Assembly: GCA_002706365.1 (NCBI GenBank)
Contig: PALM01000012.1
Coordinates: 1-48,089, forward strand
Length of the DNA stretch: 48,089 nt
Direction of reading: 5' to 3'
From: Flavobacteriales bacterium
Lineage (GTDB): Bacteria > Bacteroidota > Bacteroidia > Flavobacteriales_E > Vicingaceae
Shown here: piece by piece, positions 1-33,656 of the stretch
Layout: every line of letters starts with the position of its first letter
Position numbering within the stretch: position 1 is the first letter of the stretch
Position numbers and translations under genes: made by a program
Notes under the pieces: generated by a model
Told to the model about the DNA's origin: nothing
What the model saw: the letters and a program-made list of their open reading frames with translations, nothing else
Database searches by the model: none

Positions 1-54
1 AAACTCTTCCGAATAACGACGATGTTTTCGTAAAGTCCTGATGTTTGTTTTCAT
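1..54 (-). CDS. N-terminus of an IS3-like transposase OrfA (cut by the window edge)
   Basis: Reading leftward from an ATG at 54 gives 18 open codons ending HRRYSEEF at the window edge. The Arg-Arg-Tyr-Ser-x-Glu-Phe pattern right after a basic stretch is the typical beginning of the helix-turn-helix transposase family HTH_Tnp_1 (OrfA of IS3/IS911-type elements), which binds the element ends. Only the first 18 residues are visible, so the family call is an inference from this short motif and from the terminus-like sequence upstream. A coincidental open frame cannot be excluded. Confidence 0.5.
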   Translation of the reverse strand, partial: MKTNIRTLRKHRRYSEEF

Positions 55-98
55 GTTGATCACATTTAAAAGTGGTCAACCTATTTCAGGCACGGACA
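1..98 (-). mobile_element. Probable terminus of an IS3-like insertion sequence
   Basis: Upstream of the transposase start lies about 44 bp that would begin with TGTCCGTGCC on the minus strand (98 to 89). IS3-family elements begin with TG. The motif GGTTGACC and, a little further in, TGATCAAC give the stretch an inverted-repeat-like look. The element would end at about 98 and continue beyond the left edge. Target duplication and the other end are not visible, so the exact boundary is inferred. Confidence 0.42.
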
Positions 99-101
99 TA
101 T

Positions 102-138
102 GGATATTAGAAGTGAGAGATGGGATTTGGGATAATAG
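102..138 (-). repeat. TC-heptamer array (TCCCA type), left arm of the S23-gene pair
   Basis: On the minus strand the sequence falls into 7-bp units that all begin with TC: TCCCAAA, then TCCCATC, TCTCACT and TCTAATA, followed by TCC. On the plus strand, 24 bases starting at 102 match the reverse complement of the array at 570-618 at 21 positions, so the two form an imperfect inverted repeat around the S23-family gene. Confidence 0.75.
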
Positions 139-198
139 TCTATTCAAATCACGTTTCCTTTCAGAAATAATTGTTGTAACTTTTAATAAAGTTTCATT

Positions 199-549
199 AT
201 GTCTGATATAGATCTCCAAGAGAAAAGTCGACGATTCTCATTTAGAGTGAAGCATTTCGTTAGGTTATACCCTAAAGACTTTGTTAAATATGAGATTTCA
301 CATCAATTACTGCGATGCGGAATGTCAGTAGGTGCAAATACAAGAGCTGCATTTAGAGGAAGATCGAAGAAAGAGTTTGTAGCTAAGCTAGGGATAGTGG
401 TTGAAGAGTCAGATGAGTGTATTTATTGGTTAGAAATGCTCTCTGACGAGGAGAATGTGGATAAAAAGGAGTTATTAAGACTTCAAAAAGAAGCGACTAG
501 CTTAATGAAGATATTTGTGTCTATAAGGAACAAACATAGATCTTTATAA
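199..549 (+). CDS. Four-helix-bundle protein of the S23 / 23S rRNA intervening-sequence family
   Basis: The 116-residue protein has the hallmark pattern of the PF05635 (IVP, S23) family: QLLRCGMSVGANTRAAFRGR followed by SKKEFVAKLGIVVEESDE and WLEML. Its length matches the family (about 115-125 residues). Members fold as a four-helix bundle. They are found inside 23S rRNA intervening sequences of Leptospira and Coxiella, and related Avd proteins serve diversity-generating retroelements, but most Bacteroidota copies have no known function. No reverse transcriptase or rRNA is present here. The gene sits alone between an IS end and mlaD, and is framed by inverted arrays of 7-bp repeats (102-138 and 570-618), as if gene plus arrays were one unit. 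Possible -7 element TAACTTTT at about 178. Family call is firm; function is unknown. Confidence 0.88.
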   Translation: MSDIDLQEKSRRFSFRVKHFVRLYPKDFVKYEISHQLLRCGMSVGANTRAAFRGRSKKEFVAKLGIVVEESDECIYWLEMLSDEENVDKKELLRLQKEATSLMKIFVSIRNKHRSL

Positions 550-569
550 GCTCCAAATATTAATTCCAA

Positions 570-618
570 TCCCATTTCCAAATTCTCAGCTCCCATCTCC
601 CACATCCAATATCCGAAG
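570..618 (+). repeat. TC-heptamer array (TCCCA type), right arm of the S23-gene pair
   Basis: Seven consecutive 7-bp units begin with TC at 570, 577, 584, 591, 598, 605 and 612; examples are TCCCATT, TCCCATC and TCCAATA. The units are degenerate but the phase is perfect. The array ends 24 bp from the mlaD stop and is inverted relative to 102-138. Confidence 0.8.
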
Positions 619-642: not shown

Positions 643-1623
643 CTACTTCTTCTTCTTATCTTTGTCTTTGCGGCCAAAGATCGAGAAGTGGACGTAGCGC
701 TCAGGATTGAGCTGCATATCGAGCAATAGCTTATCAAGATCAGCTGCAGAAGCTTCAAGGTTGCGATATAGGGTATCGTTGTTGATCAGCATACCCATTG
801 TGCCTTCGCCATTATTCACCTTATCCACCACTTCTGAAAGTTGCTTCATTGCGATAGAGGCATTCTGGACGGTCTCTCTAAGGTTAGCTCCGGCCAAGGA
901 ATCAGTTATCGCCTCAATATTTTCTAATGAGTTAGTGAGGGTCTGATTGTTCTCTGCAAGATTGCTAGAAATGCTTTCTACATTTTCGAAGATCTTATTC
1001 AAATGCTCTCTTTCCTCAGCAACCAATCCATCAATTCTATTCATTGTGCGATTGAATGTCTCTAATGACCCTCTTATTGAACTAAAGCTCTTATCCAGAT
1101 CATCTCTTGCTCTTTCATTGAAAATGGTAGAGATCACTATGATTGCAGAATCTACTGTCGACATAAGGTCCTCTGCCTTTTTCTTAAGTGGAGCAATCTC
1201 CTGATTCACAGTCTCTGTAAGTGTAGCTTCCAAGCCTGACTTTAGGGTGTCGTTGATGCTCGCTTGAGTGACAGCCCTACCTAACTTGAGATCGACAGCC
1301 TTTGAGCCGAGAATATCCAAACTGACGATCTCTGCCTTGGTATCTTCAGGGATGATCAGATTTTCTTCAGTTACAGAGAACTTAACTAAGAGTCTTCCAG
1401 AATTATCTGGAATGAATTGGACAGACTCAACTTGACCGACCTTAAAACCATTAACGGTGACAGGGTTAGAGGGAGCCAATCGGTCTACATGCTCATATAC
1501 CGCATAGTAAACCCGATGTTTCGAAAAGATGTTATGTCCTTTCAAAAAATTTGCACCCCAAAAAAGGAGTGCGATCGCCAATAGCATGACGAATCCGATC
1601 TTGACTTCCTTGGAAATCTTCAT
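643..1623 (-). CDS. MlaD/MCE-family lipid transport protein
   Basis: The 326-residue protein has an N-terminal membrane anchor (about residues 8-28). A single MCE/MlaD domain follows at about 38-120, including the conserved stretch APSNPVTVNGFKVGQVESV. The remainder is a long, mostly helical, coiled-coil-prone region with a lysine-rich end. MCE proteins of this type are periplasmic, inner-membrane-anchored, substrate-binding parts of ABC systems that move phospholipids between inner and outer membrane. No permease or ATPase partner is encoded nearby. The start lies 9 bp after the amidase stop, so the two genes form one minus-strand operon, a pairing I recall as common in Bacteroidota. Family is secure; transported lipid unknown. 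Confidence 0.88.
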   Translation of the reverse strand: MKISKEVKIGFVMLLAIALLFWGANFLKGHNIFSKHRVYYAVYEHVDRLAPSNPVTVNGFKVGQVESVQFIPDNSGRLLVKFSVTEENLIIPEDTKAEIVSLDILGSKAVDLKLGRAVTQASINDTLKSGLEATLTETVNQEIAPLKKKAEDLMSTVDSAIIVISTIFNERARDDLDKSFSSIRGSLETFNRTMNRIDGLVAEEREHLNKIFENVESISSNLAENNQTLTNSLENIEAITDSLAGANLRETVQNASIAMKQLSEVVDKVNNGEGTMGMLINNDTLYRNLEASAADLDKLLLDMQLNPERYVHFSIFGRKDKDKKKK

Positions 1624-9254: not shown

Positions 9255-10046
9255 ATGAAATCACTTAATAAAATAATTCTAGGATCCTTTATACTAATGA
9301 TGGCTTTATCTGCTTGTCAGGACGACGAAAATGATGATAATCAGCCAACCGCAGTAGGCACAAGCGAATTGAGTATTCGTTTAACTGATGCCCCCGGGAA
9401 TTATGATGAAGTGAATATTCACATTCAGCAAGTTAGAGTAAATCTAAACGACAATGGATGGGTTGACCTTCCAACTGATACAGGGATCTACAATCTCTTA
9501 GACTTCACAAATGGAATTGATACTACAATTGCCAGTGGTACCTTACCTAGTGGAAGTATCAATCAAATAAGATTCGTACTTGGCGACAGCAATACAGTTA
9601 AAGTTGATGGAGTTGTTCATCCTCTTACTATTCCTTCTGGATATACTTCAGGTTTGAAATTGAATGTTAGTCAAGCACTGCAACCAGAATTAACTTATTC
9701 TATTTTGGTAGATTTTGACGCGGCTCAATCAATTGTCTTAACTGGTAATGGAGAGTATAAGTTAAAACCAGTATTGAAGGTGATTGCAGAGGGAATTGAT
9801 GCTGCAATTATTGGTATAATCGATCCATCGAATGTAAGCACAAACCTATATGCTGTACAAAATCAAGATACCTTAGGTGGAGCAATGAGTGATACTACAG
9901 GAGCCTTTACTATTAATGGTTTGGATGCTGGCACCTATTCTCTGATTATAGATCCTGCAGCACCTTATAAAAAGGATACCATTGACAATATTGTATTGAC
10001 AACCGGTGTAGTTGAGGATTTAGATACGATCCAAGTCGTACAATAA
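9255..10046 (+). CDS. DUF4382 lipoprotein with C-terminal carboxypeptidase-regulatory-like domain
   Basis: The ATG at 9255 is chosen over 9207 because it yields a short lipoprotein signal ending ALSAC (Cys19 or so). The mature part starts with a DDEND linker. A DUF4382 domain follows, recognisable from ELSIRLTDAPGNYDEVNI and the later VDGVVHPLTIPSGY. The final 75 residues look like a CarboxypepD_reg-like beta-sandwich (GIIDPSNVSTNLYAVQ, TTGAFTINGLDAGTYSL). Function of DUF4382 is unknown; this architecture is frequent in Bacteroidota. A strong terminator follows. Confidence 0.85.
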   Translation: MKSLNKIILGSFILMMALSACQDDENDDNQPTAVGTSELSIRLTDAPGNYDEVNIHIQQVRVNLNDNGWVDLPTDTGIYNLLDFTNGIDTTIASGTLPSGSINQIRFVLGDSNTVKVDGVVHPLTIPSGYTSGLKLNVSQALQPELTYSILVDFDAAQSIVLTGNGEYKLKPVLKVIAEGIDAAIIGIIDPSNVSTNLYAVQNQDTLGGAMSDTTGAFTINGLDAGTYSLIIDPAAPYKKDTIDNIVLTTGVVEDLDTIQVVQ

Positions 10047-11320: not shown

Positions 11321-11339
11321 GTTTTTTGAAAAGCTTGAG

Positions 11340-11381
11340 TCTAGACTCTAGGCTCTAGATTCTAGATTCTAGATTCTAGAT
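11340..11381 (+). repeat. TC-heptamer array (TCTAG type)
   Basis: Six consecutive 7-bp units TCTAGNN, ending in AC, GC, AT, AT, AT, AT, followed by TCTCAAT. It lies 32 bp upstream of queA. It is the only array whose TC strand reads away from its nearest gene. Confidence 0.9.
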
Positions 11382-11586
11382 TCTCAATAACAAAATTGCC
11401 AATCTGTCACCTAATTCTTACAATCTGTCAGGATATAGCTGAAAATCAATTATTTAACTAAAACCTCTCTATCCACTGGCATGAGCAGGATAGCGAGCTT
11501 TCTTCCAAATTAATTCTCAAAAAAGGCATCTTCGCATAAAGCTTGCACCATCAGTACCAAACAAAAATTAATCAATCCCAAAAGGA
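11382..11586. other. Spacer between queA and proC with a 10-bp direct repeat
   Basis: CAATCTGTCA occurs at 11400-11409 and again at 11421-11430, 21 bp apart (two helical turns). It might be an operator for the proline operon. I see no convincing TAnnTTTG promoter in this stretch and no gene. Confidence 0.35.
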
Positions 11587-20114: not shown

Positions 20115-20149
20115 TCTAGACTCTAGGTTCTAGGCTCTAGATTCTACAT
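20115..20149 (+). repeat. TC-heptamer array (TCTAG type) abutting the PBP promoter
   Basis: Five units TCTAGNN, ending in AC, GT, GC, AT, then TCTACAT. The last unit overlaps the -7 element of the downstream gene, and the array ends 7 bp before its ATG. Confidence 0.88.
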
Positions 20150-20152
20150 TTG
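20145..20152 (+). promoter_or_regulatory. -7 promoter element of the penicillin-binding protein gene
   Basis: TACATTTG is an exact TAnnTTTG match, 4 bp before the ATG at 20157, so the transcript would be almost leaderless. The spacer and -33 region consist of TCTAG heptamers and contain no TTG. Confidence 0.5.
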
Positions 20153-20156
20153 TAAA

Positions 20157-22364
20157 ATGTTCAACCGCCTGCCTAAATGGCTTAGATTCAGTTTGATTTT
20201 TCTAGCAGGACTGCTAATTGCGATCTGCACCTTCTTTGTTTTGCTGTTCAGCGGTGCTTTCGGAAACATCCCGAATGAGCAGGAGCTTGAGGATATTCAA
20301 AATCAATCTGCAAGTCTGGTCTATTCCAATGATGGACATTTGATCGGAAAGTTCTTTGAAGAGAATAGAACCAATCTACCATATGACTCCCTGCCCGAAA
20401 ATTTGATCCAGGCCTTGATAGCTACTGAAGATGCTCGTTTTTACGAGCATGAAGGAGTTGATGGTAGGGCTTTGGTTCGTGTACTGCTTAAGACCATGCT
20501 GATGGGAGATCGCTCTGCCGGTGGCGGTAGCACTCTTTCGCAACAATTGGCGAAGAATCTTTACGGCAGAAAGGACTTTGGGAAATTCAGCATTGCGATC
20601 AATAAGCTAAAAGAAATCATCCTCGCCAATCGCCTGGAAAATCTTTACAGTAAAGAGGAGATCATTGAATTGTATCTAAACACAGTACCATTTGGTGAGA
20701 ACCTTTATGGAGTTGAGGCAGCAAGCCTTAGATACTTTTCAAAATCTGCAATTGATCTTCAGGTCGAGGAATCTGCTGTATTGATAGGCTTACTCAAGGC
20801 CAACTCTTTCTATAATCCCAGACTTCACCCTGAGAATGCCCAAAGCAGAAGGAATGTGGTTCTTTCGCAAATGGCGAAATACGCTTATATCACTGAGTCC
20901 GAGGCTGACTCCCTTCAAGAACTGGAGATGAAATTGGACTATCGCAATTTAGCAAGAGAAAATGTCACTCCTTACTTTCTAGATCGTCTTAAGAAGGAAG
21001 CTGAAGACATCATTGCTTCAATCAACAATAAGGAAGGTGAAAAGTATAATATCCACACCGATGGATTAAAGATCGTCTCTACCTTGGATATTGGCTTGCA
21101 GCAAAATCTCTATGAAGGCATGTCGGTCCATCTTAAGGAAATGCAATCCATTCTGCGCCGACAATATGCCAAAGGAGTTTCGGCCAGAAAGTTGAATCGT
21201 TTGGTTGAGAAATTGATGTCGCAAAACAAACTAAGTGCTTCAGAAAAGAAGGAAAGTCTGTATTTCGATTGGGAAAAGGGAGACACCTTAGTCGACCTCA
21301 ATGCTGCAGATAGCCTAAAATACATACTCACACAATTGCAGTCGGGAGCTTTTTCCATGGATCCAAAAAACGGGGCAATAAGAAGTTGGATCGGCGGGAT
21401 TCACTATCGCTATTATCCATATGATCAAGTTAGGGCTGCACGACAATTAGCCTCCACATTCAAACCCATTCTCTATGCAGCTGCACTCCAAGAAGGCTTT
21501 AGGGCTTGTGATTACTTGAGCAATGAAGAAGTAGTACTCACCGATTACGATGACTGGTCTCCCACTAATTACGATGGCACTAGTGGTGGGGAGTTCTCTT
21601 TGGCAGCCGCATTAGCTCTATCAAAGAACTTACCTACGCTTGATCTATACTTACAGACGGGCTGGGATGCCGTAAATCAGATGTGGGACACCCTGGGCTT
21701 TATCGAAGATCTCAATAAAGAACCATCAGTGATTCTAGGCACTAATTCAGCAAGCCTTTTACAATTGGTACGGGCTTATGCCAGTTTTGCCAATGGAGGT
21801 TTTGAGGTAGATCCCTATACCATAGAAAGTATAAGGACCGCAGATGGACAGCTAATCTATCAGAAGGAGAAAAGCAAGCAAAAAAGGGTAATTGAGAAAG
21901 AATTGAGTCTGCAAATGAATGAGATCCTGGCTAAAACGGTAAATGAAGGAACAGCTAATGCAATTCGATCAAGATATGGGATCAGAAACCAACTGGCTGC
22001 AAAAACGGGTACCTCACAAGATTATGCGGATGCTTGGACGGTGATCTACAATAATGATCTGGTATGCGGTATACGAGTTGGAGCTGCATTTCCATCGATC
22101 CATTTCAATAGCGGATCCTATGGCTCTTCATCCAGGCTGGCCCTTCCCATCTTGGGAGAAGCATTGAAAAGAGAGAAATACAGAAGAGCTGACTGGTTAA
22201 ATGCCGGATTGGATCAAACAGATCTGATCGACTGCGAGAATTATCGCGAGATCAAAGGAATTGAAAAGGTCTTTCAGATCTTTAGAAAGAAGGAAACGAG
22301 TTTAGAAGAAGCGGAGAAGCGGTCGAAAAGGAAAGGTTTGTTTAAGAGGGTGTTTGGAAAATAG
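20157..22364 (+). CDS. Bifunctional penicillin-binding protein (class A, PBP1-type)
   Basis: 735 residues. Membrane anchor at about 10-33. The glycosyltransferase domain GT51 (about 55-230) has the catalytic Glu91 in EDARFYEHEG, GGSTLSQQLAKNL (123-135) and a late second block LYLNTVPFGENLYG. The transpeptidase domain has S433-T-F-K436, S489-K-N491 and K616-T-G618. It polymerises glycan strands and cross-links peptides in the periplasm. The length and the short C-terminal basic tail after the transpeptidase fit PBP1A/1C-like enzymes of Bacteroidota; I cannot separate these. Its promoter merges with a heptamer array, and another array follows the stop by 12 bp. Confidence 0.93.
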   Translation: MFNRLPKWLRFSLIFLAGLLIAICTFFVLLFSGAFGNIPNEQELEDIQNQSASLVYSNDGHLIGKFFEENRTNLPYDSLPENLIQALIATEDARFYEHEGVDGRALVRVLLKTMLMGDRSAGGGSTLSQQLAKNLYGRKDFGKFSIAINKLKEIILANRLENLYSKEEIIELYLNTVPFGENLYGVEAASLRYFSKSAIDLQVEESAVLIGLLKANSFYNPRLHPENAQSRRNVVLSQMAKYAYITESEADSLQELEMKLDYRNLARENVTPYFLDRLKKEAEDIIASINNKEGEKYNIHTDGLKIVSTLDIGLQQNLYEGMSVHLKEMQSILRRQYAKGVSARKLNRLVEKLMSQNKLSASEKKESLYFDWEKGDTLVDLNAADSLKYILTQLQSGAFSMDPKNGAIRSWIGGIHYRYYPYDQVRAARQLASTFKPILYAAALQEGFRACDYLSNEEVVLTDYDDWSPTNYDGTSGGEFSLAAALALSKNLPTLDLYLQTGWDAVNQMWDTLGFIEDLNKEPSVILGTNSASLLQLVRAYASFANGGFEVDPYTIESIRTADGQLIYQKEKSKQKRVIEKELSLQMNEILAKTVNEGTANAIRSRYGIRNQLAAKTGTSQDYADAWTVIYNNDLVCGIRVGAAFPSIHFNSGSYGSSSRLALPILGEALKREKYRRADWLNAGLDQTDLIDCENYREIKGIEKVFQIFRKKETSLEEAEKRSKRKGLFKRVFGK

Positions 22365-22376
22365 TTTTTTTTGAGA

Positions 22377-22397
22377 GCCTAGAATCTAGAGTCTAGA
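22377..22397 (-). repeat. TC-heptamer array (TCTAG type), left arm
   Basis: Plus-strand units GCCTAGA, ATCTAGA and GTCTAGA start 12 bp after the PBP stop. Inverted partner at 22485-22512 across 87 bp. Between them GAATTAA pairs with TTAATTC (22432-22448 region). Confidence 0.8.
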
Positions 22398-22484
22398 CTA
22401 TTTAAAAGTTAGAAACTTAGAATATAGCTTTAGAATTAAGTTTAATTCTTATAGATCTTAATAATTTTGATTCAATTAAGAACA

Positions 22485-22512
22485 TCTAGATTCTAGACTC
22501 TAGGCTCTAGGT
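22485..22512 (+). repeat. TC-heptamer array (TCTAG type), right arm
   Basis: Four units TCTAGNN ending AT, AC, GC, GT, followed by TCT. The arrays at 25431 and 26240 show nearly the same unit order. Confidence 0.9.
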
Positions 22513-22519
22513 TCTTTTT

Positions 22520-25430: not shown

Positions 25431-25458
25431 TCTAGATTCTAGGCTCTAGACTCTAGGT
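25431..25458 (+). repeat. TC-heptamer array (TCTAG type) at the end of the VIT gene
   Basis: Four units TCTAGNN ending AT, GC, AC, GT. The following unit TCTTCTA (25459-25465) contains the stop codon of the minus-strand VIT gene. Confidence 0.9.
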
Positions 25459-25462
25459 TCTT

Positions 25463-26239: not shown

Positions 26240-26267
26240 TCTAGATTCTATGTTCTAGGCTCTAGGT
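26240..26267 (+). repeat. TC-heptamer array (TCTAG type) at the end of the 173-residue gene
   Basis: Units TCTAGAT, TCTATGT, TCTAGGC and TCTAGGT. The next unit, TCTACTA (26268-26274), contains the stop codon of the minus-strand gene. Confidence 0.88.
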
Positions 26268-26271
26268 TCTA

Positions 26272-33548: not shown

Positions 33549-33582
33549 AATCAGAGATCAGAAATCTGAAATCTGAGATTTT
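33548..33582 (-). repeat. TC-heptamer array (TCTGATT type), left arm
   Basis: Plus-strand units AAATCAG, AGATCAG, AAATCTG, AAATCTG and AGATTTT. Inverted partner at 33623-33650, 40 bp away. The array begins inside the carboxylase hairpin. Confidence 0.82.
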
Positions 33583-33622
33583 ATTTTTTCTGCTAAATAT
33601 TCATCCCGAAATCGAAATCACA

Positions 33623-33650
33623 TTTCTGATTTCTGATTTCCGATTTCTGA
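33623..33650 (+). repeat. TC-heptamer array (TCTGATT type), right arm
   Basis: Units TTTCTGA, TTTCTGA, TTTCCGA and TTTCTGA, ending 6 bp before the TTG start of the TauE/SafE gene. Confidence 0.85.
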
Positions 33651-33656
33651 TTTGAC

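Follow-up and report, generated by a model that had tools for sequence, protein, structure and literature searches.

What kind of genetic unit is an S23 gene that lies between ordinary protein genes and is framed by inverted arrays of heptamers? The question is raised by the left end of the window, the 48,089 bp of DNA analyzed here. This DNA is the complete contig C12 in a draft genome of 3.02 Mb (G000). S23/IVP proteins are common, and we know of no function for them. The first-pass annotation of this DNA had proposed a candidate mobile cassette, a proposal supported by paralogues that are homologous from array to array and by empty sites in relatives. The unit is very probably a mobile cassette, and the best reading of the window element is a transposase-less cassette resembling the intervening sequences (IVSs) of rRNA genes.

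An S23 gene between two heptamer arms

The features at the left end of the window and their continuation on contig C20 are as follows.

1–98, minus strand: right end of an IS3-type insertion sequence (IS), within which OrfA starts on the minus strand; six identical ends occur in G000
99–139, plus strand: inner part of the left arm, about 5 TGGGATT heptamers; the rest of the arm lies beyond the IS
174–182, plus strand: TTGTAACTT box before the start codon, common to S23 cassettes of the genus
199–549, plus strand: gene for an S23/IVP four-helix-bundle protein of 116 aa (PF05635, TIGR02436, AlphaFold2 model)
562–614, minus strand: right arm, about 7 units of the inverted left-arm motif (TCCCATC.. 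on the plus strand, TGGGA.. on the minus strand)
643–1623, minus strand: mlaD-like gene (name assigned from sequence), whose 3' neighbour in relatives is a Fe-S protein gene
Contig C20, ~358291–358341: outer 7 units of the left arm, on the other side of the IS

The open reading frame at 199–549 belongs to the S23 (23S_rRNA_IVP) family, as it matches curated profiles above their cut-offs (PF05635, E = 1e-16, 61.5 bits against 33.8; TIGR02436, E = 1.8e-21, 76.4 bits against 24). Its AlphaFold2 monomer model (pLDDT 93.7) has its nearest structural matches in the S23 proteins 2RLD and 2GSC (chains A–E in both), followed by Avd of diversity-generating retroelements (DGRs; 4DWL and 8UB7), with Foldseek TM scores of 0.73–0.77 and VIA Z scores of 13.4–14.1, values of Z that are common among helical bundles. 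The kinship with Avd that had been suggested for this gene thus holds at the level of fold, but help from an Avd-type reverse transcriptase (RT) is unsupported in G000, where no PF00078 gene was found.

The inverted core of 21 matches in 24 positions reported earlier is exact: no ungapped 24-mer does better when the left flank is compared with the reverse-complemented right flank (102–125 against 614–591). None of 3000 random 200-350-200 bp frames of contig C20 reached this value (random mean 15.3), and the period-7 scores of the window arms (8 on the left, 14 on the right) were equalled by 29 of 20,000 random frames.

An IS3-like end had been placed beside the left array. The end is of IS3 type, but the element lies inside the arm rather than next to it. 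Its left end forms the final 97 bp of contig C20, and directly before it C20 reads GGGAGTTGGGAGTTGGGATG... (~358291–358341, the outer half of the left arm), with GGGAGTTGGGAGTTGGGATGTGGGAGTTAGGAGTTAGGAGCTGGGATTAT abutting the IS end. A full copy on contig C1 (L317, ~807–2115) has HTH_Tnp_1 and rve ORFs, in keeping with membership of the IS3 family. The element duplicates 3 bp, TAT; when this is collapsed, the two halves rejoin as a single left arm of 12 heptamers in one phase, with a lag-7 score of 31 (25 uncollapsed), and the IS therefore sits inside the left arm.

This IS3-type element seems to favour heptamer arrays as targets (L317–L321 and the window). Insertions adjoin arrays at the window/C20 junction, on C1 (C1:38114, between inverted TGGGAGA and TCCCACA) and at the starts of C41 and C19; the insertion at the start of C7 adjoins an array weakly, and that on C35 does not. 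Some IS3-family elements target REPs in similar fashion.

The box upstream of the start codon recurs, in the form TTGTAMCTT, within 80 bp upstream of 13 of the 21 S23 genes of G000 and G001 taken together, against a background of one site in the 48-kb window (both strands) and six in 358 kb of C20. By eye, TTGTA[AC]CTT is often accompanied by a small A+T-rich hairpin, and it spans S23 subfamilies in the genus. We regard it as a candidate promoter or binding site.

Gain at the window site and borders of the cassette

The window cassette is intergenic, between protein genes and not in an rRNA gene. In 13 of 13 family relatives, the mlaD-like gene is followed by a conserved Fe-S protein gene after a gap of ~0–110 bp, with no S23 gene downstream. 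The Fe-S protein gene of G000 lies at C20:356837–358159 and faces the contig end that bears the outer half of the split arm; thus the S23 cassette was gained between these two genes. The mlaD match is absent in G001, the sole other genome of the genus examined.

Empty sites in relatives had been named as a check on mobility, and they also exist for a second locus, that of cassettes A and B of G004, for which outgroups are available. Cassette B is present in G004 and G017, and the orthologous intergenic site is empty in G023, G022, G024, G013, and G008. Cassette A occurs only in G004, where it replaces a 650-bp segment common to G017 and G023, other genera having a short gap there. Occupied and empty orthologous sites were thus seen for the window cassette and for cassettes A and B. 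Alignment of paralogous cassettes (A and B of G004, L001/L002, and L011/L012) sets the borders of the unit: homology runs from outer array edge to outer array edge, with none beyond. The cassette consists of an array arm, a short leader, the S23 ORF, and an inverted array arm, here ~0.55 kb without the IS.

Movement is rare relative to active IS elements on the time scale seen, given that all non-overlapping pairs of at least 74% identity are syntenic, except for A and B, which are a tandem duplicate. No recent (>99% identity) S23 insertion pair was found, and no target-site duplication (TSD) of the cassette was seen between the compared species, which are too diverged. Synteny and fixation across the family had been put forward as grounds against mobility: they do not describe the window site, which is empty in all 13 relatives, but some other S23 loci are indeed old and syntenic. 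One such site, L044 (hmgA–hppD as we read it), carries S23 in several genera and is empty in G017 and G023; because several genera share the gene, we dropped it as a case of gain, and its absence in G017 and G023 suggests loss. Insertions of 85 bp and 170 bp beside this site in G004 proved to be other repeats, not heptamer arrays. The former (L044 ~9660–9745, G004:C2) is a palindromic dispersed repeat of ~85 bp (..GTAATTATGTTTGGCGAG..), found in many places in G023 and missing where G017 and G023 have the orthologous site; it is a MITE-like family unrelated to the heptamer arrays.

In most comparable S23 pairs dN/dS is 0.02–0.23 (one pair with very few changes gives 0.70, and two are saturated), which indicates that the protein is constrained. 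Several S23 copies have in-frame stops, as expected of dispensable elements.

Arms at S23 genes in the same genome and in many phyla

G000 holds 12 PF05635 genes, and inspection finds repeats on both sides of all 12, as inverted copies of one motif, mostly with period 7. The motif differs from gene to gene (CTAGAAT, AAATCAG, AAGGTTT, TTTAGAG, GGTCGAG, TGGGATT, and others), and the period is irregular at three loci (nearer 6 at L007, nearer 9–10 at L010, mixed at L008). A fixed period-7/8 rule is satisfied on both sides by 6 of the 11 scorable genes, and most of the remainder pass on the inverted match.

We sampled 29 further S23 loci from 29 relatives, 80 named loci across many phyla, and extra copies from selected relatives; the 80 were found via a closer alignment set and are biased towards one S23 subfamily. 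We then compared 154 S23 loci with 641 control ORFs from the same DNA, requiring a period-7 score of at least 9 on both sides or an inverted flank match of at least 17. In this test, which the first-pass annotation had proposed, flanking arrays were far commoner at S23 genes than at other ORFs: both-sided arrays occur at 59 of 154 S23 loci (38%) and 16 of 641 controls (2.5%; OR 24, p = 2e-32), and inverted matches at 84 and 46, respectively (OR 16, p = 1.6e-37), the p-values assuming independent loci, which orthologous copies are not, so that effect size is the safer guide. Direct flank matches were not enriched in this comparison, nor were lags 5, 9, 10, 11, and 13; lag 8 was enriched. Arms match their own partner (median 18) far better than arms swapped between loci (10.5).

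Arms of period 6, 8, or ~10 occur at some loci. A lenient rule, applied to S23 loci alone and not to controls, recovers arms at 55 of 78 named loci (Bacteroidota, Firmicutes, Planctomycetota, Patescibacteria, Acidobacteriota, and others), leaving ~30% of named loci without recognizable arms. An Rfam scan of 17 other named S23 loci found no rRNA, and a search of phage records with one query gave no S23 match at E 1e-5.

On cyanobacterial plasmids, 6 of 8 S23 loci have arms by inspection (two of the eight being near-identical), with motifs such as AGGGAAC, AGGTGAC, and TTAGCTT. Two of these plasmids (L229 and L231) have S23 between cas6 and cas4 of type I-D cas operons. S23 genes in cas loci and at several rRNA insertion sites were noted earlier (PMC3936711, PMC11270868), and those in cas operons were interpreted as having a CRISPR-associated function (PMC3936711); the position between cas6 and cas4 is more simply read as an insertion. 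The L229 and L231 genes carry long heptamer arms, the upstream array reaching ~160 nt.

Anatomy of the arms

The median arm has 4.4 units (31 nt). Arms are strand-asymmetric (C 10% and G 26% in upstream-arm orientation), and AG is the most conserved dinucleotide. The two arms of a locus have a common unit vocabulary, with the order of units nearly random relative to each other: the in-register excess averages 0.73 score units, nominally significant overall (p = 0.004), with p < 0.05 in 4% of 72 loci. That the unit order of one arm barely predicts the other favours recognition of units over a paired, in-register stem, which we rejected as the main constraint on this ground; given the small excess, a weak stem component may act alongside recognition.

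Arm similarity also follows protein identity, from a baseline of ~0.2 at low identity to 0.36 at 60–75% and 0.62 above 75% (Mantel r 0.19, p 0.002), a correlation to which shared descent contributes, since synteny is frequent among the close pairs. TAGTAAT-type arms are, however, common to the L075/L078/L080 group and to L076/L195 at ~70% protein identity, although their flanking genes differ.

Gene-less arrays

Period-7 arrays also occur away from S23 genes. The window contains the following examples.

11334–11384: solo CTAGA-class array, best match the arm of L001
20115–20150: solo CTAGA-class array
22374–22515: gene-less inverted CTAGAAT pair (22374–22400 and 22485–22515), arm class of S23 genes L001/L002
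23970–24022: solo CTAGA-class array
25431–25461: solo CTAGA-class array
26240–26271: solo CTAGA-class array
33550–33653: gene-less inverted AAATCAG pair, arm class of L011/L012
35068–35133: gene-less pair of a TGGGATT-type array (own class, with L009 as best match) and, after it, a TCCAGAG array

In the 447 kb of G000 that were counted, we found 52 such solo arrays. Compared with the arms of all loci, 39 of the 52 best match those of the 12 resident S23 genes rather than the 152 others (3.8 expected, p = 1e-33). In G001, 15 of 35 best match their own genome's S23 arms (1.9 expected, p = 1e-10), and the remainder are mostly of the CTAGA class of L001/L002 in G000. The earlier suggestion that gene-less array pairs relate to S23 genes as REPs do to RAYT genes agrees with this match to resident arms, in two genomes: arrays reach 12–14 per 100 kb in G000 and G001, five single-S23 genomes have one array in 384 kb, and the S23-rich G033 and G004 have few, which indicates that gene-less arrays have not been amplified in every S23-rich genome. 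A few non-S23 genes in G000 and G001 are flanked by arrays, probably because solo arrays are so dense there.

A penicillin-binding-protein-like gene (20157–22364) lies between the CTAGA-class arrays at 20115–20150 and 22374–22400. In G001:C158 (L256, 8761–8884), a near-perfect array of ~17 CCAGATT heptamers has its best S23 arm match in another genome, and at G000:C20:64978–65256 three AAATCGG arrays lie in the same orientation at ~124-bp spacing.

Mobilizing enzymes and alternative explanations

Profile searches found no RT (PF00078) in G000, a 96%-complete assembly, or in G001, G003, G004, G006, G013, and G023; an RT occurs in only 12 of 41 genomes, all 41 of which have S23 genes. Three weak PF01797 (Y1 transposase) genes occur in G000 and none in G001 (9 S23 genes) or G033 (12 S23 genes), both of which have armed S23 genes. 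As far as draft assemblies and the sensitivity of Pfam allow, neither enzyme is thus a general requirement, and we rejected a resident RT or Y1 transposase as such. These results weigh on two routes of movement. Retrotransposition in the manner of Avd, with S23 loading a cellular RT onto cassette RNA, would account for the fold match to Avd of DGR ribonucleoproteins, and an RT may be diverged beyond Pfam, reside in missing contigs or have belonged to past hosts; with so many S23-bearing genomes lacking one, we consider this route improbable. In the second route, a Y1/HUH transposase would cut the arrays and mobilize the cassette in trans, with S23 as helper or passenger. The three weak G000 genes and the REP-like lifestyle of the solo arrays speak in its favour, but the armed S23 genes of G001 and G033 make it a poor prospect. 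Recombination between heptamer arrays already in place, through RecA or by annealing, deserves serious consideration as an alternative for the cutting and joining step; cassettes would enter array-like DNA, and S23 would protect single-stranded repeats or anneal them. This route is consistent with units shuffled between arms, with the segment replacement by cassette A, where the border in the sister species is already AAAGTT-like, and with the intergenic sequence of G004 at the window site, GGATTAGAGATTAGAAATTAA; most of the empty sites shown have no evident array, however, and we judge it unlikely.

Other readings deny mobility a central role. If the arms paired in the transcript as an RNA processing stem, offering RNase III sites as in rRNA IVSs, mobility would be incidental. 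The arms are indeed inverted, and the termini of the Coxiella IVS form a 28-bp stem cut by RNase III (PMC4990558), but the near-random unit order, the tracking of protein similarity by arm motif and the presence of the same motifs in solo arrays leave this explanation little room. That S23 genes are merely intergenic, amid dense intergenic repeats, draws on the array density of G000 and G001 and on the few array-flanked non-S23 genes there. It is refuted for the family as a whole by the same brackets in G033 and G004, with their few solo arrays, and in many phyla, and by the match between the two arms of a locus, which is not seen with arms taken from elsewhere or in direct orientation; at the window locus, the arrival of the complete unit between the mlaD-like and Fe-S protein genes counts against it, and we give it scarcely any credence.

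A proposed mobile cassette recognized by its own S23 ring

The best explanation, to which we assign a probability of about 0.7, is a mobile cassette whose S23 ring recognizes its own arms, with cutting and joining by the host or another enzyme. The cassette entered between the mlaD-like and Fe-S protein genes in the lineage of G000, and the IS3-type element landed in its left arm later. Comparison establishes the unit and its borders, the gain at this site, the cassette-specific arm motif, the constraint on the protein, and the likeness of many gene-less arrays to arms of the same genome; binding by the ring and the enzyme that moves the cassette are inferred. That S23 binds the heptamer arms is suggested by its Avd-like fold, the length and strand asymmetry of the arms, and the correlation between motif and protein. 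The four-helix-bundle protein, related to Avd and a pentamer in solved relatives, would form a ring that recognizes the cassette's own arms, which are probably bound as single strands in the manner of TRAP on its RNA. A correspondence of about one heptamer per subunit, suggested by the median of 4.4 units per arm, is the more doubtful part of this model. A bound ring would bring the two cassette ends together. Because S23 has no catalytic domain known to us, breaking and joining strands would fall to host replication or recombination or to another enzyme, possibly by recombination into pre-existing arrays. Gene-less arrays could be derivatives of cassettes or targets served in trans.

Relation to known elements

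The window element is a member of the S23 protein family that, by its defining features, is not an rRNA IVS, a DGR, or a REP/RAYT system; in behaviour it resembles an IVS that lies outside rRNA and has REP-like satellites. With the 23S rRNA IVS of Coxiella burnetii it has in common an S23 ORF between inverted terminal repeats, heptamer copies adjoining the ORF (in Coxiella GACAGAT, strain-variable in copy number), and a sporadic, horizontally acquired occurrence (PMC4990558). Unlike that IVS, it is intergenic, its arms are tandem heptamers of a cassette-specific motif, and matching gene-less arrays lie elsewhere in the genome. The likeness to Avd of DGRs (4DWL, 8UB7) is the four-helix-bundle fold; S23 differs in having flanking arrays of its own and, in G000, no RT that we could find. 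REP/RAYT systems (REPtrons) resemble it in their many dispersed gene-less repeats matching those that flank the gene and in the landing of IS elements in them, but the only Pfam match of the window gene is PF05635, not a Y1/HUH transposase, and its repeats are tandem heptamers rather than the GTAG-tagged palindromes of REPs (PMC3733652). MITEs and IS elements also have inverted ends and are gained at intergenic sites, whereas the cassette has no transposase, its short-unit array ends vary from copy to copy, and no TSD was seen among these diverged species.

Intergenic period-7 tandem arrays have been reported in Beggiatoaceae (TAACTGA), cyanobacteria (STRR), and a few Bacteroidetes (PMC4679880), where they were not connected to S23; the cyanobacterial plasmid S23 genes analyzed here carry heptamer arms. 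In the open-access literature we found no publication linking S23 to flanking heptamer arrays beyond the Coxiella 23S IVS.

Tentatively, and at slightly less than even odds, we propose that in bacteria at large, and perhaps in archaea, the S23/IVP genes make up a single large class of transposase-less mobile elements whose ends are tandem arrays of ~7-nt units, with a pentameric ring taking one unit per subunit, and whose products include the IVSs of 23S rRNA, the STRR-like heptamer arrays found in cyanobacteria and Bacteroidota, and the S23 genes of cas operons. The 23S rRNA IVS would then be a special case, such a cassette inside an rRNA gene. Linking S23 to heptamers, whose intergenic arrays had been reported but not explained, gives both a testable role, as a ring protein and its binding arrays that would form a self-spreading unit, and would make rRNA intervening sequences just one of the places where a broader element resides. 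It predicts why S23 genes appear in cas operons and at several rRNA sites, and the intergenic copies make IVS movement accessible to experiment.
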